Shown here: positions 27,248-37,256 of the stretch, piece by piece
How positions within the stretch are numbered: the first letter of the stretch is position 1
Layout: every line of letters begins with the position of its first letter
Source: Planctomycetota bacterium
GTDB taxonomy: Bacteria; Planctomycetota; Planctomycetia; Pirellulales; Pirellulaceae
Length of the DNA: 48,988 nt
Assembly (NCBI GenBank): GCA_027619595.1
Contig: JAQCHP010000020.1
Span: forward strand, 1 to 48,988
Reading direction: 5' to 3'
Translations under genes and position numbers: made by a program
Notes under the pieces: model-generated
Database searches by the model: none
What the model saw: only the letters and a program-made list of their open reading frames with translations
Told to the model about the DNA's origin: nothing

Positions 27248-30200
27248 CTACTCGGGCCACCAGGAATCATCGGCGAACGCATCATCGACGAAAAGCGACT
27301 GACGACTCACTGATCCGCTTTCCGATTCTGGCACCGCAGCATTAGCTGGAACCGGAGCAGGAGTGACCGTAATCCGAACTGGTATTGTCTGCACATTTCC
27401 CGTAGTGTTGGCGACATTCACAGTAAATTCGAACGGAGTATCGCTCGACGAGAACACACTGGGCTTCAAGACTCGGATCGCACCCGTAAGTCGATCCAAG
27501 GTTACGACATCGGTCAGCGAATCGACGGCCGCCTGGATTTGCGCTGCAAATGCCGTTGCCGACGTGGGTGTAGTGATATGCTGAGGTCCCAAGAAGAACC
27601 AAGGCGTCGCGTTCGCACCTAGCCCAACCGCCGCTGTCTGATCGCGGGTCACTCGATTTGCAATTGCTGGCGCCGAATAGTCGAACAGGAACTGCGTCAC
27701 GTTCAATCCCAACGTTTGAGCGTAGACCTCGAAAAACGGCAATGGATTAGGAACTGACGGGAACCGCCATTCATTTTGCTTTTCGAATAACAGGTCGGTC
27801 ATTTCATTGAATTTCCCCTGAAGACTGGCTGCCTCCGCTGCCCAAGCCGCTTCCGGACTGTTCGCAGTTACGACTGGCAAATGACGTCGAACCACCAGTA
27901 ATTGACCGGTAAACTGTTGCTCCATCTGCTTGACGACCGAATGAATGGCTCTGCAAGCTGGGCAACCGTAGTCTAGATATTCGATTAACACTACAGGTGA
28001 CGCTGGGTTGCCGGAGATGTGATCATCCGCCGCGAGTGCCAGTCGCGGGTCCAAGCCACTCCGATTAATCTGAAATAGTTTCGAACTGCCTGTGACCGTT
28101 GTCGACAGTGTGCCAATGAGCGTACCCGCAGCACTCCCTTGTTCTGCTATCAGTTGGTTCGCCCCATTTACTTGTATGGTCACAGTCGTTGGTTGCGACA
28201 GCGAAGCTCCATCGTCAACACGATACGTAAATGTATCGGTTCCAGAAAATCCTATTGAAGGGGTGTAATCAAACGCGCCGCTGGGATTCAAACTAACGAG
28301 ACCATTGGCCGCCGTCACCGCGATCACTGCGGTTAGCGTCCCCAAATCGACATCGGTGTCATTGGCGAGCACGCCACGAACACCAGGCACCACAAGTGTA
28401 CGACCGATATTCGTAGCATACGAGTCTGCCACGCCCACCGGAGCATCGTTCACCGGCACAACCGTCATCGACACCGTTGTTACATTGCTTGTCGCAACAC
28501 CGTCGCTCGCCCGATAAGTAAACGAATCGGGACCATGGTAATTTCCGGTCGGAGTATAGCTGAACGAGCCATCAGCATTGAGCGTCACGTTGCCATGTTG
28601 CGGCTGAGCGACCACACTCGCTGTTAACGTCTGACCATCGGCATCTGTGTCGTTCTTCAGTACGCCGTTTGCTGCATTGACGGAGAGGGTCGCATCCTCA
28701 TTGACGGAATACGTGTCTGCCACTCCCACTGGCGCGCGATTCACAGCCGCAACATTGATCGTCACGGTCGCAACATTTGAGTTACCCGTACCATCGTTCG
28801 CACGATAGGTGAACGTATCGACAAAGGTAGCAGTCGGCGTGTAACTGAACGATCCACTTGGGTTTAAGGTGACGGCCCCATTCTGTGCTTGCGCCACCAA
28901 CACGGCCGTCATGGTATTCCCGTCAGCATCGGTATCATTCTTGAGCACTCCATCGGCGACTGCTACATTTAACGTACCGCCTTGGTTCATGTTATAACTA
29001 TCATTGGCGGCCACCGGCAAACGATTCACAGCCGCAACATTGATCGTCACGGTCGCGACACCCGAATTACCGGTACCATCGTTCGCACGGTAGGTGAAGG
29101 TATCGACGCCAGAAAAAGTAGCCGTCGGCGTGTAGCTGAACGATCCATTGGGGTTTAAGGTGACGGCCCCATTCTGTGCTTGCGCCACGATGACGGCCGT
29201 CATGGAATTCCCGTCGGCATCGGTATCATTCTTGAGCACGCCATCGGCGACTGCTACATTTAACGTGCTGCCCTGGTTCATGCTGTAATTGTCGTTCGCT
29301 GCCACCGGCAAATCATTCACGGCGTTGACCGTAATTGCCACCGACGTGACACCACTTGAAGCAGCACCGTCACTGGCACGATAGGTAAACGAATCCGCAC
29401 CGGTATAGTTTGCGGTGGGAGTATAGCTGAACGATCCATCGGCATTGAGCGTTACGGTCCCCTGCTGGGGTTCCACCACCAAGGTGGCCGTCAACGTCTG
29501 TCCGTCGGCATCGGTATCATTCTTGAGCACTCCATTGGCAGCATTGACCGTGAGTGTCGTATCCTCAGTGGCCGAATACGTATCTGCGACCCCCACTGGC
29601 GCGCTGTTGACGGCGGTGACATTGACCGTAACTGTGGCCACATTCGAATTCAAAGTTCCGTCATTCGCACGATACGTGAATGTGTCGGTTCCCACAAACG
29701 TTCCTGCGGGAGTGTAAACGAACGATCTATCGGCACTCAACGCGACGGTGCCATTTTGAGGATCTGTTACGACTGAAGCGGTAAGCATTTGAGCGTCCGC
29801 GTCGGTGTCATTCTTTAGCACACCATTAACCGCTGCCACGGTCAAGACTCCGCCTCGCGTGATGCTGTAATTGTCGTTCACAGCCACCGGAGCGTCTGGC
29901 GCAGCTTCTATTGTGATATTCACCGTCACAGGTGCCGAGTTTGAGTTACCGTCGCTGACACGATACTGAAATGAATCGGCCCCATTGAAATTCGCTGCCG
30001 GAGTGTACACAAAAGATCCATTCGTGTTCATCTCAAGCGTGCCACGCTGCGGCTGTTGCGTTACGGTGGCGGTGAGCGAATCCCCCTCTGCGTCGGTATC
30101 ATTCTTCAATACACCGTTGGCTACATTCACCGTAAGTACGGTGTCTTCCACCGTCGAATAGGAATCATTGGCACCCACGGGAGTCGAATTCACAACAATA

Positions 30201-30250
30201 TTGACCGTTGCGACAACCGACTCATCGCCAACTCCGGCTCGATACGTGAA
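27248..30250 (-). CDS. In-frame C-terminal part of the giant exoprotein, after the amber codon: tandem repeats and DsbA-like domain
   Basis: Continues the frame of the upstream gene straight after TAG (30251-30253) for 1,000 codons including the stop (999 residues). It starts with the rest of the interrupted repeat (FTYRAGVGDESVVATV), then seven full tandem roughly 95-residue repeats of the form (P-V-G/A)xxD-x-Y...LxVxxxxGVLKNDTDADG...GSFSYTPTxxFxGxDxFTYR. After a linker comes a DsbA/thioredoxin-4-like domain: SPVVLIEYLDYGCPACRAIH with the CPAC active site at 27953-27964, and a late ATPWFFLG cis-proline loop. A short cadherin-like tail ends it. No signal peptide or plausible independent start is present (only a GTG at 30193), so it makes sense only as part of the larger protein. 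Confidence 0.85.
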   Translation of the reverse strand, partial: FTYRAGVGDESVVATVNIVVNSTPVGANDSYSTVEDTVLTVNVANGVLKNDTDAEGDSLTATVTQQPQRGTLEMNTNGSFVYTPAANFNGADSFQYRVSDGNSNSAPVTVNITIEAAPDAPVAVNDNYSITRGGVLTVAAVNGVLKNDTDADAQMLTASVVTDPQNGTVALSADRSFVYTPAGTFVGTDTFTYRANDGTLNSNVATVTVNVTAVNSAPVGVADTYSATEDTTLTVNAANGVLKNDTDADGQTLTATLVVEPQQGTVTLNADGSFSYTPTANYTGADSFTYRASDGAASSGVTSVAITVNAVNDLPVAANDNYSMNQGSTLNVAVADGVLKNDTDADGNSMTAVIVAQAQNGAVTLNPNGSFSYTPTATFSGVDTFTYRANDGTGNSGVATVTINVAAVNRLPVAANDSYNMNQGGTLNVAVADGVLKNDTDADGNTMTAVLVAQAQNGAVTLNPSGSFSYTPTATFVDTFTYRANDGTGNSNVATVTINVAAVNRAPVGVADTYSVNEDATLSVNAANGVLKNDTDADGQTLTASVVAQPQHGNVTLNADGSFSYTPTGNYHGPDSFTYRASDGVATSNVTTVSMTVVPVNDAPVGVADSYATNIGRTLVVPGVRGVLANDTDVDLGTLTAVIAVTAANGLVSLNPSGAFDYTPSIGFSGTDTFTYRVDDGASLSQPTTVTIQVNGANQLIAEQGSAAGTLIGTLSTTVTGSSKLFQINRSGLDPRLALAADDHISGNPASPVVLIEYLDYGCPACRAIHSVVKQMEQQFTGQLLVVRRHLPVVTANSPEAAWAAEAASLQGKFNEMTDLLFEKQNEWRFPSVPNPLPFFEVYAQTLGLNVTQFLFDYSAPAIANRVTRDQTAAVGLGANATPWFFLGPQHITTPTSATAFAAQIQAAVDSLTDVVTLDRLTGAIRVLKPSVFSSSDTPFEFTVNVANTTGNVQTIPVRITVTPAPVPANAAVPESESGSVSRQSLFVDDAFADDSWWPE

Positions 30251-33200
30251 CTAATCTGCTCCTCGATAGCCTGTAGTCGGCGTATAGACGAACGAACCGT
30301 TGGGGCTCAGATCAAGCGTCCCGTGCTGTACATTCGCTTGCAACGTCGCAACCAATGCTTGTCGGTCCGGGTCTTGGTCATTGGCAAGCACTCCATTGGC
30401 CGCCGTGACCGTCAAGACTTGATTGACATCGGTTCGATAGGAATCATTACGAACGACCGTCGGACCGTCATTAACTGCATTCACCGTAATCGTCACTGTC
30501 GTGGCCGCACTGAAGGAGGTCCCGTCCCCTGCGCGATAGGTAAACGTGTCCGTGCCGTTATAGTTGGCCGTTGGTTGGTAGGTAAATGACCCGTCCGAGT
30601 TTAATGTCAGGGAGCCGTGTTGGGGCTGGGTCACCACGCTCGCCGTAAGCGTTGTCCCGTCGGCGTCCGTGTCGTTCTTGAGAACGCCGGTCGCTGCATT
30701 GACCGTAAGTGTAACATCCTCATTCACGGTGTAGGAATCCGCCACGCCAACAGGCGGATCATTGACCGACGTGACATTCAGGGTGACCGTCACGACGTTC
30801 GAGGTCAGGGTTCCATCGCTGACACGATACGTGAAACTGTCTGTTCCATTTGCATTCGCATTCGGAGTGTAATTAAAGCTTCCGTTGGCGTTGAATATTA
30901 ACTGTCCCTTCGACACCGTCGTAACCAATTGAGCCGTCAAACTGTCACCATCTGCGTCCGTGTCATTCTTGAGCACACCATCCGCAACAGCAACGGACAA
31001 AACCACATCTTCGTTCGTCGTGAAACTGTCGGCCACAGCCACTGGCGCCGCATTCACATCATTCACTTGGATTGCAACAGTGATTGGATCCGAACTCAAT
31101 GTTGCGTCTTTGGCTCTATAGGTAAACGAATCGGCGCCAACGAATCGAGCAGTGGGGGTGTACGAGAAACTCCCGTTCGGGTTCAAAGCGAGTTGGCCGT
31201 GGGCAACGTTGGTTACCAATTCGACCGTCAAACTGTTGGCATCCGGATCCGTATCGTTGCTCACTACCCCTGCCGCGACAACAACAGTCAGAACTGCATT
31301 TTCATTGACAGTATAGCTATCGTTCACGCCAACCGGCTTTTCGTTGACATTTGTGACGTTAATCGTAGCGTTTATGTTCTGCCGCTGTCCATTCGCACCC
31401 ACTGCCTCAACAGTGAGCGAATAACTCGCCTGTTGTTCGAAATTAAGTGCGACGCTATCCGAGACCGTAACTCTTCCGGTGGCACCATCCAAGTTAAACG
31501 CATTCGCATTGCTACCATTCTTGAGCGCGAAAGTTATCGGTTGATTCAAAGCAGAACCGGCGGTCAAGGTACCAACTAAAGTACCCTGAGCGCTATTCTC
31601 GGCAATCGTGAGTACCTGATTTAACGCAGGGTTTCCGACAGTAATCGTCACAGTCTGAGGGGCTGACGTCCCTTTCCCATCGCTGGCACGGTAGGTAAAT
31701 GCATCGGTCCCATTAAATGTCGTGGTCGGCGTGTACGTGAACGACCCGTCGGCATTCAAGGTAAGTGCGCCCTGTTGCGGCTGGGTGGCTACAATGGCGG
31801 TCAGTGTTGTCCCATCGGCATCCGTATCGTTCTTCAGCACTCCATTGGCGGCGTTCACTGTCAACACCTGCCCTTGCGGCACGGCATAAGAGTCCGCCAC
31901 AGCGACAGGAATTGCGTTGACAACTGGCGGGGTAGTGCTCCCGCTTCGAATGGCCGCAGCCAAGGGTAGGTCGCCCGAGCGTTGCTCGCCCGCCGCGACC
32001 ATCTGACGGAATATCGGCGCCGTACTCGCCGACACGGGTTTGGAAGATGATGCGAAGAACCAGGCAATTGAAACGTAGGACGGCTCAAGCTGGAGTTCCC
32101 CGAAATTATTGTTCTCGTAGGAACCTCCCCCTGTAACGACAAGATTTGTGATCTTATCTTCACCGGCCAAAGCTCCACTTACCACGACGCTTTCTTTGCC
32201 ATCTTTGAGCGCGGCAGGTTGCCGTTGAGTGACCTCGTAGGTCCCCGCAAGCAAATCGCGAAACGAATACGATCCATCATCCGCGGTCAGCGCGGTTCGT
32301 GATGGGAGGGCAACTCCGTTTGTATTCTTTCCGGTGAGCGTGACCAATACTCCGGGAACTCCAGACTCGGTCGTCGCACGTGTGCCGTTCTTGTCGGCAT
32401 CTAAAAAGACAAAGCCAGAAATGCGGTTACCGTCCGGGTTGGTTACCGTAACCGTTACACTACCGCTATCAGACAGTCCGCTAGCATTTTGCGTTACATA
32501 GGTGAACGTATCTGTACCCACGAATCCGGATCGAGGAACATAACGCAGCTGGTTGTTCTCTAAAGTAACAACACCCGATGCACCCTGAGTGAAACTCTGA
32601 ATGGTCAACAATTGGTTATTGCCCGCGTTGGCAACATCATTCTTGAGGACATCGATCAATGCCCCGGTTACAACAACGCTTGCGGTATCATCGACGGCGC
32701 TCGGAGGGTCAGGCTGATCAGCTATCGTAATCGTGACAGTGGCTGCGGCTGAATCGAGCGAACCATCGTTAGCTCGGTAGGTAAACGAATCGCTTCCAAA
32801 GAAGTTGGCCTTAGGTGTATAAGTAAACGACCCATTCGCATTTAATAGCACGGTCCCATTGGTTGGCTGCGTCACAACCGTGGCGGTCAGTGGGCTCCCT
32901 TCTGCGTCAGTGTCATTTGCTAACACGCCTTGTGGCTGAGCAATATTGAGCACGGCATCTTCATTGACGGAATACGTGTCAGCAACCGCTACAGGCGCGT
33001 CATTCACTGCCGTCACCGTGAGCGATACCTGGACTGGGGTTGAATTCCCAGTTCCGTCGCTGATCGTATAGGTGAACGAATCCGCACCACTGAATTGTGC
33101 CGTGGGGGTGTAACTAAAGGAACCGTTGCTGTTGAGGATAAGCGATCCGTTTGCCGGTTGCGTGGCAACCGCCACGGCAAGGGTGTCACCGTCGGCATCA

Positions 33201-33590
33201 GTATCATTCGACAAGACGCCATTTGCGACATTCACTGCCAGCGTCGTATCCTCACTCACGGAATACGAATTCGCAACTCCCACCGGCAAATCATTGACTG
33301 CAGTCACGTTGATCGTAACTCGAGCATGATTGGAGTCAATCGTCCCGTTATTCGCTTTGTAGATAAACGAATCGGCTCCAAAGAAATTGGCGTTCGGCGT
33401 ATAGTTGAACGTACCATTCGGACTCAGCACGAGGGTTCCGCGAGAAGTGGTCTGCACAACCGATGCAGTCAGGGTGCCAGGATTCGGGCCGCCGTCATTA
33501 AAAAGAACACCGTTCGCCAGAGCAACTGTCAAGACGCCATCTTCGGCGATGGAGTACGAATCTGGAAAAGCCGGTAATGTACCAAGGACT
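27248..33590 (-). repeat. Sixteen tandem roughly 95-residue (about 285-bp) coding repeats
   Basis: Sixteen copies of a VCBS/cadherin-like ('tandem-95') unit lie within the giant gene between about 33590 and 28160, interrupted by one SdrD-like and one cadherin-like module. Hallmarks are DSYSVNED-type openings, GVLKNDTDADG and GSFSYTP. Copies 13 and 14 (about 29325-29030 and 29035-28735) are almost identical in DNA, indicating recent duplication. Confidence 0.85.
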
Positions 33591-36500
33591 GTAAGACTGA
33601 CGCTCTGTATAGCCGCGTTTCCAGCCACATCACTCAGGCGAATATCAAACTGCTGGGGTACAAGTTGTGTATTCGTGGGCGTCCAACTGACGACGCCTGC
33701 CGAACTAATTGTCATTCCGGCCGGGGCATTTGCGAGAGAGTACACCATACCAGACAGGTTCTCGTCCGGGCTGTTGGCATCAAAACTGTAGAGGGTGTTG
33801 ACAGTCGCCAAAGCCGGTGCGGTGTTCGAAAAAAGGGCCGGCGCAATGGTGTCAATCGTCAGGGTAAGCGCCGGGGATGTGGCACTGCTTGTCCCGTTAA
33901 CGATCTGTACCGCACGAACCTCACGCTGACCGTCGGTGACCGCTTGATTACCGGATGTCGTCACGGTAACCGTCGTACCGGTCGCCGTCGCGGTCCCCAT
34001 TTGGACTCCATCGACAAAAATTCGCACCTCAGCCCCACTTGTGACACCACTCACTAAGAACTGCAACGTTCGCTGAGCGCTGCTGTTGTTCCTGTTCGTG
34101 AAATTGTCACTATCGGATGTCCCTGTGTCAGATACCGCCACAAGATCCACCGAAGTTGGAGCAACGATCGTTGATTCGCCAAAGCTTCTGCCGATCGCCT
34201 CACGCCCAATTTCAACGTTGACCGTATACGATTTCGATGTGGCCAACGGCTCGGTGAACACGAACCCCGCCGACGCTTGTGCTCGTACCGTATACGTGCC
34301 TGGATTTAGCTCAAAGACATAGTTGCCATTGGCATCGGTTGCCGTTGACACCTCGCCAGCGTCGAGCACATTATTGTTGTTCGAGTCGATGTAGATGACG
34401 GAATTGGCGACACCGGTTTCACCGCTATCTTGACGACTATTTCCGTTCGTGTCTCGGTAACGCGCCCCCCGAATCCGTCCCTGTCCCGCGATCGTCTGAA
34501 CGACGACCAGCTGATTCGATTCACTCACGGGCAGCTCGCGATACGGATCGACTGATTGATCCCTGATGGGTAATGCCGCCACCGTATCGGCGGTTGTCAT
34601 GTCGAGCACTGCCCCGAACACCGTAAAGCCACCGTTGTTAGTATCGAGTGAGCGATTGTCGTCATGCAGATTGACAAAAAACTGATTGGTGGCGCTGTTC
34701 GGTTGCCCGCCAAGCTTTGCCATGGCAACCGTACCGCGCACATTGGAAATTCCGGGTTCATTTTGAATCTGCGCGTCTTGCGGCACCGAGGTGAATTGAG
34801 ACCTACTGGTAAACGTCGTCGAATTGGTGCGGAACCCCCCCGCCTGAATGACAAAATCCTTTCCGCCGCTGTCCGCCGAACGATGAAAAAATGTATTAAC
34901 GTAGTCGCCGTCGTTGATATAGGTCAAGAAGTTGTTCACTGTGATCGGTTTACGGTCGAGGAATAGCTCCATCACGAGCGGACCAAAGTTGGTATTGAGA
35001 GACACAACCGGATTCGAACCGTACACCAGAACGATCTGGTCACCATCGCGAATAGCATAGTTCTCGTAGTCCTTGGAAACTTGGCCATTCACGTACATCT
35101 TGACCGTCTTCGTAGTGTTGGCCAGGTTGCCCAGCAATTGGTTGGAGCTGAGCGTGGCCGCGGCATTATTTCCGGCTTGACCGCCGTTAGTACGCCACGT
35201 GGTAAAAAAGTCGCCCAATGTAAATTTCGTAAGTGGTTCGTTGGTGAGTGGCTCGACGCGTATCCCCCCGGTGGCGTTCACGGAGCGGATTTGCGATAGA
35301 GCAGCTCCTCCTACCGCCGTGCCCACGCCGGTAGGTATGGTGACGGCCTGACTATCGACAAAAATTGTCAGTCTGGCATCGATTCGCCCGTCGACCTCGG
35401 CGACTCGCAGTTCTTGACCAGCGACGGCATCGGACGCCGAGAAGAGCACAAGTCCACCCAACTGACCAAACGAACTGGGATTGGAACTCGTGGCCCCCGC
35501 TGCCAGATCAGCGACTTGTTTGGTACCGGCCGAAGTACCATCCGACTCCCATGCCTCTTTGCCGCTCGCCGTCGTGGCAGCGAAGAATAACCGCGTACCA
35601 ACGGTTGTAATTTCCTGAGGCGTCGAACTGCCGGCGCCACTTTCCAAGTCACGTACGAGCGTTGTGCCTGCGTCCGTGCCATCGGTCTTCCACAGTTCCG
35701 TCCCTGTGGACCCGTCATTCGCCGCAAAATAGAGGCGGTCTCCCAACACGGCCCACGTCCCGGGAATTGTGAGACCGTCGGGGGCACCTGCCCGAATGTC
35801 CTTGACACGCACCGTACCGACAGATGTACCATCGGACTTCCAAAGTTCGCGACCCGAACTCCCGTCATTGGCGGAAAAGAACAGAGTGTTACCTAACCGA
35901 ATAAGTACATCTTGGCTGGTCAACGCCCCATCCGCCCCCGCCCGCACATCCTTGACACGAACCGTACCGGCGGCGGTTCCATCAGTCTTCCATAACTCTC
36001 GACCCGTCCCGCTATCGACGGCCGTAAAAAAAAGTGTGCTACCGACCGTCGTCAGCTGCCCAGGTTCGGAGGAATTGGCAACCGTCTGACCGTTTGAGGT
36101 GGTCGTTCCGGAAAATATATCGAGCACCATGACAGTACCGGCCGAAGTTCCGTCGCTCTTCCAAAGTTCGGCGCCGGTGGAACCGTCTGTGGCAGTAAAA
36201 AACAGGGTACCGTTCAAATTCACGAGCCCTCGAGGGCTAGAAGACGGGGCGACACTCGACGACCCGTTGCCAAAAATGTCCTTCACCAGCACGGTTCCAT
36301 CCGCCGTTCCATCGGACTTCCAAAGCTCCCGTCCATTTGCGGCGCTGATTGCGCTAAAAAAAAGCTGATTGCCGACGACTGTCAGCTCTTGCGGCAATGA
36401 ACGTAATGGACCGTTGCCGTAGGGAACTTGCTCCCCCTGGCCAGGATGGAGATCCTTTACCAGGACCGTTCCGCTCTCTGTGCCGTCGCTCTTCCACAAC

Positions 36501-36883
36501 TCCTGACCGTTTACCCCATCGTCGGCAGCAAAGTACAAGGAACCCTTGTAGGCAGTAAGTTCCGTTGGATTAGCGGAGCCACTGCCAGCCCGAATGTCTT
36601 TTACTAGCTTCGTCCCCAGCGTAGTGCCGTCCGTGCGCCACAACTCGCGTCCGCTAAGAGAATTTTCTGCGGTAAAGTAGGCATAGTTCCCCAACTGGAC
36701 GAAGTCCCGAGGACTTGCGTCGCCCGCTGGGTTGATATCAATGAGGAGAGGAGAACTTGCCAATACGCGTCGGTCTTCACACATTTCAAGGACTAAGTGC
36801 CTTGAGTGTTTCTGCTTCGACGTCGGTCGATGCGTAAGCGACTTGGAACGGCTAGTGCGAAGCAAATGGGTTTTGAACTGCAT
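30251..36883 (-). CDS. Giant secreted/surface protein, N-terminal part: ELWxxDGT repeats, cyclophilin domain, SdrD-like and tandem repeats
   Basis: 2,210 residues before TAG; 3,211 if read through. Residues 32-42 (LEMCEDRRVLA) are an LEPR-XLL-like N-terminal motif of planctomycete exoproteins. Residues about 44-510 hold eight ELWKSDGT-type repeats and a degenerate ninth. Residues about 624-775 form a cyclophilin prolyl isomerase with the catalytic Arg in FFHR (Arg668), FVIQAGGF and ATNQFFVNL. SdrD-like modules lie at about 801-885 (YRDTNGNSRQDSGETGV) and 1487-1590. Between these are immunoglobulin-like modules, a cadherin-like one (about 1752-1847) and tandem repeats 1-9. The ninth is cut by TAG at GAD-stop-FTYR. 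The ATG at 36883 fits the motif spacing; GTG/TTG starts further up are possible. It lies 373 bases after the DUF1559 gene. Confidence 0.88.
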   Translation of the reverse strand: MQFKTHLLRTSRSKSLTHRPTSKQKHSRHLVLEMCEDRRVLASSPLLIDINPAGDASPRDFVQLGNYAYFTAENSLSGRELWRTDGTTLGTKLVKDIRAGSGSANPTELTAYKGSLYFAADDGVNGQELWKSDGTESGTVLVKDLHPGQGEQVPYGNGPLRSLPQELTVVGNQLFFSAISAANGRELWKSDGTADGTVLVKDIFGNGSSSVAPSSSPRGLVNLNGTLFFTATDGSTGAELWKSDGTSAGTVMVLDIFSGTTTSNGQTVANSSEPGQLTTVGSTLFFTAVDSGTGRELWKTDGTAAGTVRVKDVRAGADGALTSQDVLIRLGNTLFFSANDGSSGRELWKSDGTSVGTVRVKDIRAGAPDGLTIPGTWAVLGDRLYFAANDGSTGTELWKTDGTDAGTTLVRDLESGAGSSTPQEITTVGTRLFFAATTASGKEAWESDGTSAGTKQVADLAAGATSSNPSSFGQLGGLVLFSASDAVAGQELRVAEVDGRIDARLTIFVDSQAVTIPTGVGTAVGGAALSQIRSVNATGGIRVEPLTNEPLTKFTLGDFFTTWRTNGGQAGNNAAATLSSNQLLGNLANTTKTVKMYVNGQVSKDYENYAIRDGDQIVLVYGSNPVVSLNTNFGPLVMELFLDRKPITVNNFLTYINDGDYVNTFFHRSADSGGKDFVIQAGGFRTNSTTFTSRSQFTSVPQDAQIQNEPGISNVRGTVAMAKLGGQPNSATNQFFVNLHDDNRSLDTNNGGFTVFGAVLDMTTADTVAALPIRDQSVDPYRELPVSESNQLVVVQTIAGQGRIRGARYRDTNGNSRQDSGETGVANSVIYIDSNNNNVLDAGEVSTATDANGNYVFELNPGTYTVRAQASAGFVFTEPLATSKSYTVNVEIGREAIGRSFGESTIVAPTSVDLVAVSDTGTSDSDNFTNRNNSSAQRTLQFLVSGVTSGAEVRIFVDGVQMGTATATGTTVTVTTSGNQAVTDGQREVRAVQIVNGTSSATSPALTLTIDTIAPALFSNTAPALATVNTLYSFDANSPDENLSGMVYSLANAPAGMTISSAGVVSWTPTNTQLVPQQFDIRLSDVAGNAAIQSVSLTVLGTLPAFPDSYSIAEDGVLTVALANGVLFNDGGPNPGTLTASVVQTTSRGTLVLSPNGTFNYTPNANFFGADSFIYKANNGTIDSNHARVTINVTAVNDLPVGVANSYSVSEDTTLAVNVANGVLSNDTDADGDTLAVAVATQPANGSLILNSNGSFSYTPTAQFSGADSFTYTISDGTGNSTPVQVSLTVTAVNDAPVAVADTYSVNEDAVLNIAQPQGVLANDTDAEGSPLTATVVTQPTNGTVLLNANGSFTYTPKANFFGSDSFTYRANDGSLDSAAATVTITIADQPDPPSAVDDTASVVVTGALIDVLKNDVANAGNNQLLTIQSFTQGASGVVTLENNQLRYVPRSGFVGTDTFTYVTQNASGLSDSGSVTVTVTNPDGNRISGFVFLDADKNGTRATTESGVPGVLVTLTGKNTNGVALPSRTALTADDGSYSFRDLLAGTYEVTQRQPAALKDGKESVVVSGALAGEDKITNLVVTGGGSYENNNFGELQLEPSYVSIAWFFASSSKPVSASTAPIFRQMVAAGEQRSGDLPLAAAIRSGSTTPPVVNAIPVAVADSYAVPQGQVLTVNAANGVLKNDTDADGTTLTAIVATQPQQGALTLNADGSFTYTPTTTFNGTDAFTYRASDGKGTSAPQTVTITVGNPALNQVLTIAENSAQGTLVGTLTAGSALNQPITFALKNGSNANAFNLDGATGRVTVSDSVALNFEQQASYSLTVEAVGANGQRQNINATINVTNVNEKPVGVNDSYTVNENAVLTVVVAAGVVSNDTDPDANSLTVELVTNVAHGQLALNPNGSFSYTPTARFVGADSFTYRAKDATLSSDPITVAIQVNDVNAAPVAVADSFTTNEDVVLSVAVADGVLKNDTDADGDSLTAQLVTTVSKGQLIFNANGSFNYTPNANANGTDSFTYRVSDGTLTSNVVTVTLNVTSVNDPPVGVADSYTVNEDVTLTVNAATGVLKNDTDADGTTLTASVVTQPQHGSLTLNSDGSFTYQPTANYNGTDTFTYRAGDGTSFSAATTVTITVNAVNDGPTVVRNDSYRTDVNQVLTVTAANGVLANDQDPDRQALVATLQANVQHGTLDLSPNGSFVYTPTTGYRGAD

Positions 36884-37256
36884 CACCAGAAAACTCACTG
36901 AAGTAATTTTTTCGAAACGAATGAACGACGACTCGCGATCGCATAATCCAAGTGAAGCACCGGGCACAGCCACGCGCGGCAATTGCCGCAATCTCTCGAA
37001 TTCCGAGGGGGAGGGTACCTCTATCGTGCTCGGAGCCGGTTAGCAATGCAAGCTTGTGAACCTGTCCCGCCGCAGCTGCGAGCGCAAGCCCAACCCGCTA
37101 GTCCAGAGGGCCGATTCTTCAGGCAGAAGTAACGCGACCCCCCCAGGCGTCCCAGACATTATAACCGCCACTTGGTAGGCAGTTAACAGTATGCGATCGG
37201 CATCCGCGCTCGCCGGTCCGTCGGACTCGTACGCACGAAAGAGAAGGGAGTTGAGG
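36884..37256 (-). other. Gap between DUF1559 gene and giant gene
   Basis: 373 bases with no convincing gene. Open frames here overlap the DUF1559 gene out of frame and show no domains. This is the likely promoter or 5' leader of the giant gene. No clear terminator was identified after the DUF1559 stop. Confidence 0.4.

Follow-up and report, generated by a model that had tools for sequence, protein, structure and literature searches.

The window analysed here, 48,988 nucleotides long, is one entire contig (JAQCHP010000020.1, our C52) of the Pirellulaceae assembly GCA_027619595.1 (5.18 Mb, 96.4% complete), and carries on its reverse strand a giant gene that joins a cyclophilin and a DsbA-like thioredoxin-fold domain through a long series of repeats (Table 1). 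The gene appears as two open reading frames (ORFs) in the same frame, 30251-36991 (-) and 27248-30193 (-), parted by a single TAG. From the N-terminus, the encoded protein consists of a LEMCEDRRVLAS motif, eight ELWxxDGT repeats, an unnamed domain, the cyclophilin, SdrD_B and immunoglobulin-like domains, about 16 tandem-95-like repeats including one plain cadherin repeat, a cadherin-like repeat that holds the DsbA-like domain, and a short tail with VDDAFADDSWWPE.

Table 1. Features of the cyclophilin-DsbA gene, in positions of the window
Feature	Position	Strand	Basis or remark
Whole gene	27248-36883	(-)	ATG 36883 to final TAG; 3,210 residues plus one internal amber codon
N-terminal LEMCEDRRVLAS motif	36755-36790	(-)	By eye resembles LExLExR-type planctomycete extracellular signal; comparison with relatives
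ELWxxDGT repeats, 8 stretches	35393-36691	(-)	NCBIfam; outer limits by eye
Unnamed domain before cyclophilin (LTIFVD...VNG...DGDQIVLVYG)	35012-35371	(-)	Weak ThiS/DUF4430 resemblance; DUF4430 in relative L103
Cyclophilin domain (PF00160)	34589-35005	(-)	Pfam, alignment, PDB match
FFHR, Arg668 (predicted catalytic)	34880-34891	(-)	Sequence, alignment
SdrD B-like domain, best stretch	32204-32422	(-)	Pfam
Uninterrupted cadherin-like repeat, template for the DsbA flanks	31352-31615	(-)	Pfam, profile self-match
In-frame TAG, codon 2211	30251-30253	(-)	Within tandem-95 repeat; splits cyclophilin half from DsbA half
Cadherin-like repeat with DsbA nested inside	27362-28171	(-)	Alignment, AlphaFold, profile
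DsbA-like Thioredoxin_4 domain	27533-28027	(-)	Pfam, profile, Foldseek
CPAC active site	27953-27964	(-)	Sole two cysteines past the N-terminal signal region
Thr-Pro of cis-proline loop	27602-27607	(-)	Invariant in 16 aligned modules
C-terminal FVDDAFAD motif	27269-27292	(-)	Loose form common to other giant family proteins

An earlier note on this DNA had claimed a cyclophilin and a CPAC thioredoxin-fold domain in one gene, and both were confirmed by Pfam above the curated cut-offs. Pro_isomerase (PF00160) covers residues 627 to 765 from the ATG (E 5.6e-26; 92.1 bits for a cut-off of 21.7), and the PDB matches of this domain are bacterial cyclophilins (1j2a, E 1.3e-21). At the other end, Thioredoxin_4 (E 7.9e-17; 62.4 bits, cut-off 23.2) and DSBA (E 5.4e-7; 30.0 bits, cut-off 25.6) were matched. 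The FFHR motif, with Arg668 numbered from the ATG, and the CPAC motif lie exactly where the note had placed them, and its length of about 3,200 residues for a bridged amber codon agrees with the 3,210 found. Its description of the cyclophilin as near the N-terminus is loose, since the domain lies behind the ELWxxDGT repeats. Each of 19 aligned cyclophilin domains has the His-Arg, Gln, Ala and Phe, and across these 19 the catalytic Arg and the Phe, Gln, Ala and Phe that line the cyclophilin pocket show no or almost no variation. The CxxC and the cis-proline are both invariant in 16 aligned DsbA-like modules, that of the window included, and a profile of the 16 modules matches Corynebacterium DsbA/TsdA with an E value of about 1e-24.

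On its alignment and its model, the DsbA domain is nested within a cadherin-like repeat. The profile of the module (272 positions) gave a second match in the window protein, at the uninterrupted cadherin repeat: profile positions 6-47 correspond to residues 1793-1834 and positions 221-271 to residues 1829-1880 (numbered here from the TTG at 36991), while positions 48-220, absent from the uninterrupted repeat, correspond to the DsbA domain. AlphaFold modelling of the nested module (predicted local distance difference test, pLDDT, 91; predicted template modelling score 0.85) placed strands before residue 36 and from 223 to 270, on either side of a thioredoxin-type fold that spans about 50-217, and the nearest solved folds are of the DsbA type (Foldseek, 3gyk, E 1.9e-12). 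The module is compact and confidently modelled. If the cadherin flanks were joined, Pfam detected Cadherin (PF00028) in four of five cases (E 1.2e-6 to 2.4e-4, one above the curated cut-off); the joined flank pair of the window itself was not matched by PF00028. For the nesting, the second profile match described above is in our view better evidence than Pfam on the joined flanks.

The distribution of the module was then evaluated in 241 Pirellulaceae genomes, which include no other member of the window's genus, and where at least 215 of the 272 positions were required for a full-length match. Twenty full-length modules were found in 15 genomes, and 19 of the 20 possess the CxxC. In a draw of 392 genomes from the phylum, the full-length nested module was detected in the window's own genome only. 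For five of the 15 genomes a cyclophilin is encoded in the same gene: the window's genome (G000), across the TAG, and G004, G047, G067 and G069, in which both domains lie in an unbroken ORF of 2,217-2,272 amino acids (Pfam was run on two of these). A further protein of 971 amino acids, encoded on a planctomycete contig (L114, from a contig scan and among the 80 loci of the matches listed), combines a cyclophilin with a nested module. Past the N-terminal signal region, the CxxC provides the only cysteines in all six cyclophilin-DsbA proteins. In G064, two genes join the nested DsbA to an FKBP (L091:8880-12002 and L109:8134-11160); an FKBP protein of 673 amino acids adjoins the second, at L109:5412-7430. 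The proteins of G085, G110 and G163 carry two modules each and those of G048 and G117 one, and BLAST matched neither a cyclophilin nor an FKBP in them; the genes of G033, G034, G049 and G051 run off the ends of their contigs. A pair of nested cadherin-DsbA modules occurs in each of the Rhodopirellula proteins L086-L088 and L113, which are about 1,050 amino acids long; L086 and L113 represent one and the same gene. A double-DsbA gene is present in Rhodopirellula baltica, a species that NCBI assigns to Pirellulaceae.

The pairing was further examined from the cyclophilin side in 28 giant ORFs of at least 800 amino acids within the family, namely the window, 25 ORFs among the matches listed, L104 and L206, which entered the set through its tandem-95 repeats. 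A thioredoxin-fold domain is present in 17 of the 28: DsbA in five, a VKOR-type domain in six (L206 included) and an AhpC/TSA-like domain in six (L082, Pfam E 1.2e-8). The CxxC is intact in 15 of these 17, L096 having an ambiguous base at this place and L206 having lost both cysteines. The five VKOR-type thioredoxin domains that retain the CxxC stand with a cyclophilin, and their profile matches PDB 3kp8 (E 5.3e-15). L206 is a second giant protein of the window's own genome (C250:11140-17373 (-), 2,078 amino acids), with PF00160 at E 4.7e-36 beside its VKOR-type domain; at the places examined in this genome, none of seven other ORFs of at least 800 amino acids, some of them uncertain as genes, contains a thioredoxin-fold domain. 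On a cyclophilin tree of 27 rows, the DsbA label requires five changes (at least two forced by starred branches), the VKOR-type label four (at least three forced) and the AhpC/TSA-like label one; L114 forms a long branch of unsure placement. The DsbA and VKOR-type changes indicate that the redox domain was gained or lost repeatedly.

The twentieth module (L084, G034:C180, 8570-9319 (-)) reads VLIDYLDFQ-TGA-PGCAGYN, the TGA occupying the position of the first catalytic cysteine. This TGA is the sole stop codon from the contig end to the natural end of the gene. The 55 bases starting from it fold into a strong hairpin at -29.3 kcal/mol (z -4.15), a value that none of 200 shuffled sequences reached, and the same stretch in the 16 aligned modules gave -4.5 to -22.7 kcal/mol. 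From the sequence, the codon looks like a selenocysteine at the catalytic position; this reading favours a redox-active module and lowers the probability that the domains were merely shuffled together.

Outside the two enzymes, tandem-95 (NF012211) was matched over nine plus seven stretches (487.7 and 457.6 bits, cut-off 90), which places the protein in that family. The planctomycete extracellular signal PF07595 gave no row up to E 0.1 in the window protein; it was found in the relatives L074, L081 and L109 as a weak match under the cut-off. At the place that corresponds to the window's unnamed domain, the type B relatives carry their VKOR-type thioredoxin domain. A loose (A/V/I/L)Dxx(F/L/M)A motif is located at the C-terminus of 17 of the 28 giant cyclophilin ORFs (the window, L073-L081, L092, L099, L101-L104 and L206), often preceding acidic residues and a Trp, and is a candidate sorting signal. 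The neighbours named by Pfam encode an aminopeptidase, TerB, DUF1559, TgpA transglutaminase, DUF58, MoxR, UbiD and FtsX; nine neighbours in the window were compared with the few kb around the relatives checked, and none of them is found there again.

These data suggest a family of giant exported Pirellulaceae proteins in which a single stalk built of repeats may carry both a prolyl isomerase and a thiol-disulfide oxidoreductase, as a foldase scaffold at the cell surface, a reading to which we give a probability of about 0.47. The conserved pairing, in its several forms, hints that Pirellulaceae fold proteins on their cell surface. The LExLExR-type signal at the N-terminus would direct export of the protein, which would then be retained at the surface or within the envelope, and the stalk would keep both enzymes outside the cell. 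There, the cyclophilin would speed proline turns and the CxxC domain would make or reshuffle disulfides in other exported proteins. Because no cysteines other than those of the CxxC follow the N-terminal signal region, disulfides within the chain itself are excluded and other exported proteins are the probable substrate; the most plausible would be the proline- and cysteine-rich envelope proteins of planctomycetes. In its widest form, which we consider unlikely, the proposal would make these stalks an extracellular counterpart of the folding shop of the endoplasmic reticulum: peptidyl-prolyl isomerases (PPIases) and thiol enzymes at the surface would fold and cross-link a proline- and cysteine-rich envelope, with one relative apparently a selenoenzyme, and both enzyme types would have been swapped for unrelated ones in evolution while the pairing was kept.

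Several observations weigh against the surface scaffold. No redox domain was found in 11 of the 28 giant cyclophilin ORFs (two of them, L083 and L106, cut by contig ends), among which are two of the three proteins in the genus of L074, and the thioredoxin domain of L206 is devoid of both cysteines. Likewise, no redox domain was matched in L201-L203, three giant cyclophilin ORFs of the 392-genome draw that lie outside the family; further ORFs of 700-750 amino acids from this draw did not belong to the set. Conversely, L086-L090, complete genes of five genomes, encode the nested DsbA, but BLAST matched neither a cyclophilin nor an FKBP in them. DsbB, VKOR or a second Thioredoxin_4 were not matched in the window's own genome (at the completeness given above), and a route for re-oxidation of the CxxC is thus not evident there. 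Proteins with the YTV domain were found in all 60 genomes tested, whether the pair was present or not (two matches in the own genome); they would therefore be available as substrate, but co-occurrence lends no support. The cyclophilin model reached a pLDDT of 51 and was set aside, so that the modelling and active-site check proposed in the earlier note succeeded for the DsbA model, which is intact, and for the residues, conserved in both domains, but not for the cyclophilin model. Finally, the DsbA half lies beyond the TAG in the window's own genome and would be lost there. Among the proteins outside the family, L201:5022 (+) has 2,945 amino acids, an LERLEDRLLLT signal-like motif, two cyclophilin domains and zero cysteines.

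The same domains could belong to an adhesin or matrix protein into which the cyclophilin and the thioredoxin fold were shuffled as binding or spacer modules, with no joint folding role. The dominance of tandem-95, SdrD_B, ELWxxDGT and cadherin repeats, the repeated changes of the DsbA and VKOR-type labels on the tree, the redox-less ORFs and the cysteine-free domain of L206 all fit such a protein; however, the catalytic residues of both domains are conserved across genera and an apparent selenocysteine replaces the catalytic cysteine in one relative. Moreover, the redox partners are drawn from three thioredoxin-fold groups, and FKBP replaces cyclophilin in G064. Such recurrent meetings of a PPIase with a thiol enzyme are not predicted by pure shuffling, and we hold the adhesin to be rather unlikely. 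A surface thiol reductase or redox sensor that cuts or senses disulfides in partner cells, algae or matrix, while the PPIase adjusts the stalk or the partner, would be consistent with repeat-rich stalks suited to contacts with outside partners and with an oxidase cycle that is not evident in a genome lacking a DsbB or VKOR match. This proposal seems very unlikely to us, as the nearest solved relatives are of the DsbA type.

The internal TAG raises the further alternative that the gene of the window is a pseudogene or carries a sequence error, and that the upstream 2,210 residues alone constitute a cyclophilin-only surface protein comparable to L077, L079 or L081. The repeat register and the frame run on undisturbed across the TAG; the 1,000 codons beyond it are still open, with a similar third-position content of guanine and cytosine (0.56 against 0.58), and the CPAC and cis-Pro are intact. 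Four relatives are unbroken, and this alternative, which concerns the own copy and not the family, seems very unlikely to us. Amber recoding of the TAG was judged unlikely because TAG is an ordinary stop in the window: it terminates 8 of 18 other ORFs checked, including TerB and DUF1559 genes with complete or nearly complete Pfam domains (the 18 were taken from the ORF list, so that their freedom from internal stops is no test of recoding). Collapsed repeats were also considered; no long near-identical DNA repeat exists at the TAG, the best copies (28823-29404) being 80% alike, and a repeat artefact is therefore not indicated. The own copy is thus recently broken, polymorphic or affected by a sequence error. 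Of the two possibilities for the amber codon raised in the earlier note, read-through by recoding is unlikely, and an error is among these three candidates. In this organism the TAG may keep the DsbA half from being expressed and, the gene being split, the full protein may not be made; the layout itself is real and conserved, and the idea that homologues would always lack one of the domains is contradicted by the four unbroken relatives and L114, which have both.

Folding enzymes are usually small, soluble and located inside the cell envelope. If the surface scaffold is correct, a stalk bearing two of them would represent a new site for protein folding. It would also supply an enzyme for a long-standing finding, namely that the planctomycete envelope is rich in proline and cysteine and linked by disulfides; later reports of peptidoglycan in these bacteria limit the older view of protein instead of peptidoglycan. 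PMC8567305 describes cysteine-rich YTV proteins in planctomycete cell walls, and both PMC8567305 and PMC10632474 mention cysteine-rich YTV-domain proteins and the cell wall. Among the titles and abstract beginnings searched, subscription journals aside, no work dealt with a surface layout of cyclophilin and DsbA.

Compared with known systems, the cyclophilin shares its fold family and catalytic residues, by sequence, with bacterial cyclophilins of the PpiA/PpiB type (PF00160); these, however, are small free enzymes, whereas here the enzyme is a single domain within a repeat protein of 3,210 residues. The DsbA-like Thioredoxin_4 proteins (C. diphtheriae TsdA/DsbA, Wolbachia alpha-DsbA1, BdbD) are alike in fold, CxxC and cis-Pro, but the present domain sits inside a cadherin-like repeat of a protein that also has a PPIase, in a genome where neither DsbB nor VKOR was matched. 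In NCBIfam, the domain scores best against the Rcas_1661 family thioredoxin-like (seleno)lipoprotein NF041057 (E 1.3e-18), a family named for members with selenocysteine, which L084 also seems to contain; at 67.5 bits for a cut-off of 190 the window protein is not a member, and its layout is not that of a lipoprotein. The thioredoxin domain of the type B relatives belongs to the group of the VKOR-thioredoxin fusion (PDB 3kp9), but is joined to a cyclophilin. The repeats resemble those of the tandem-95/ELWxxDGT surface proteins (NF012211, TIGR04534) that carry the signal PF07595, to which the N-terminus is similar by eye through its LExLExR-like motif; to this known architecture, the window protein adds two folding-enzyme domains.

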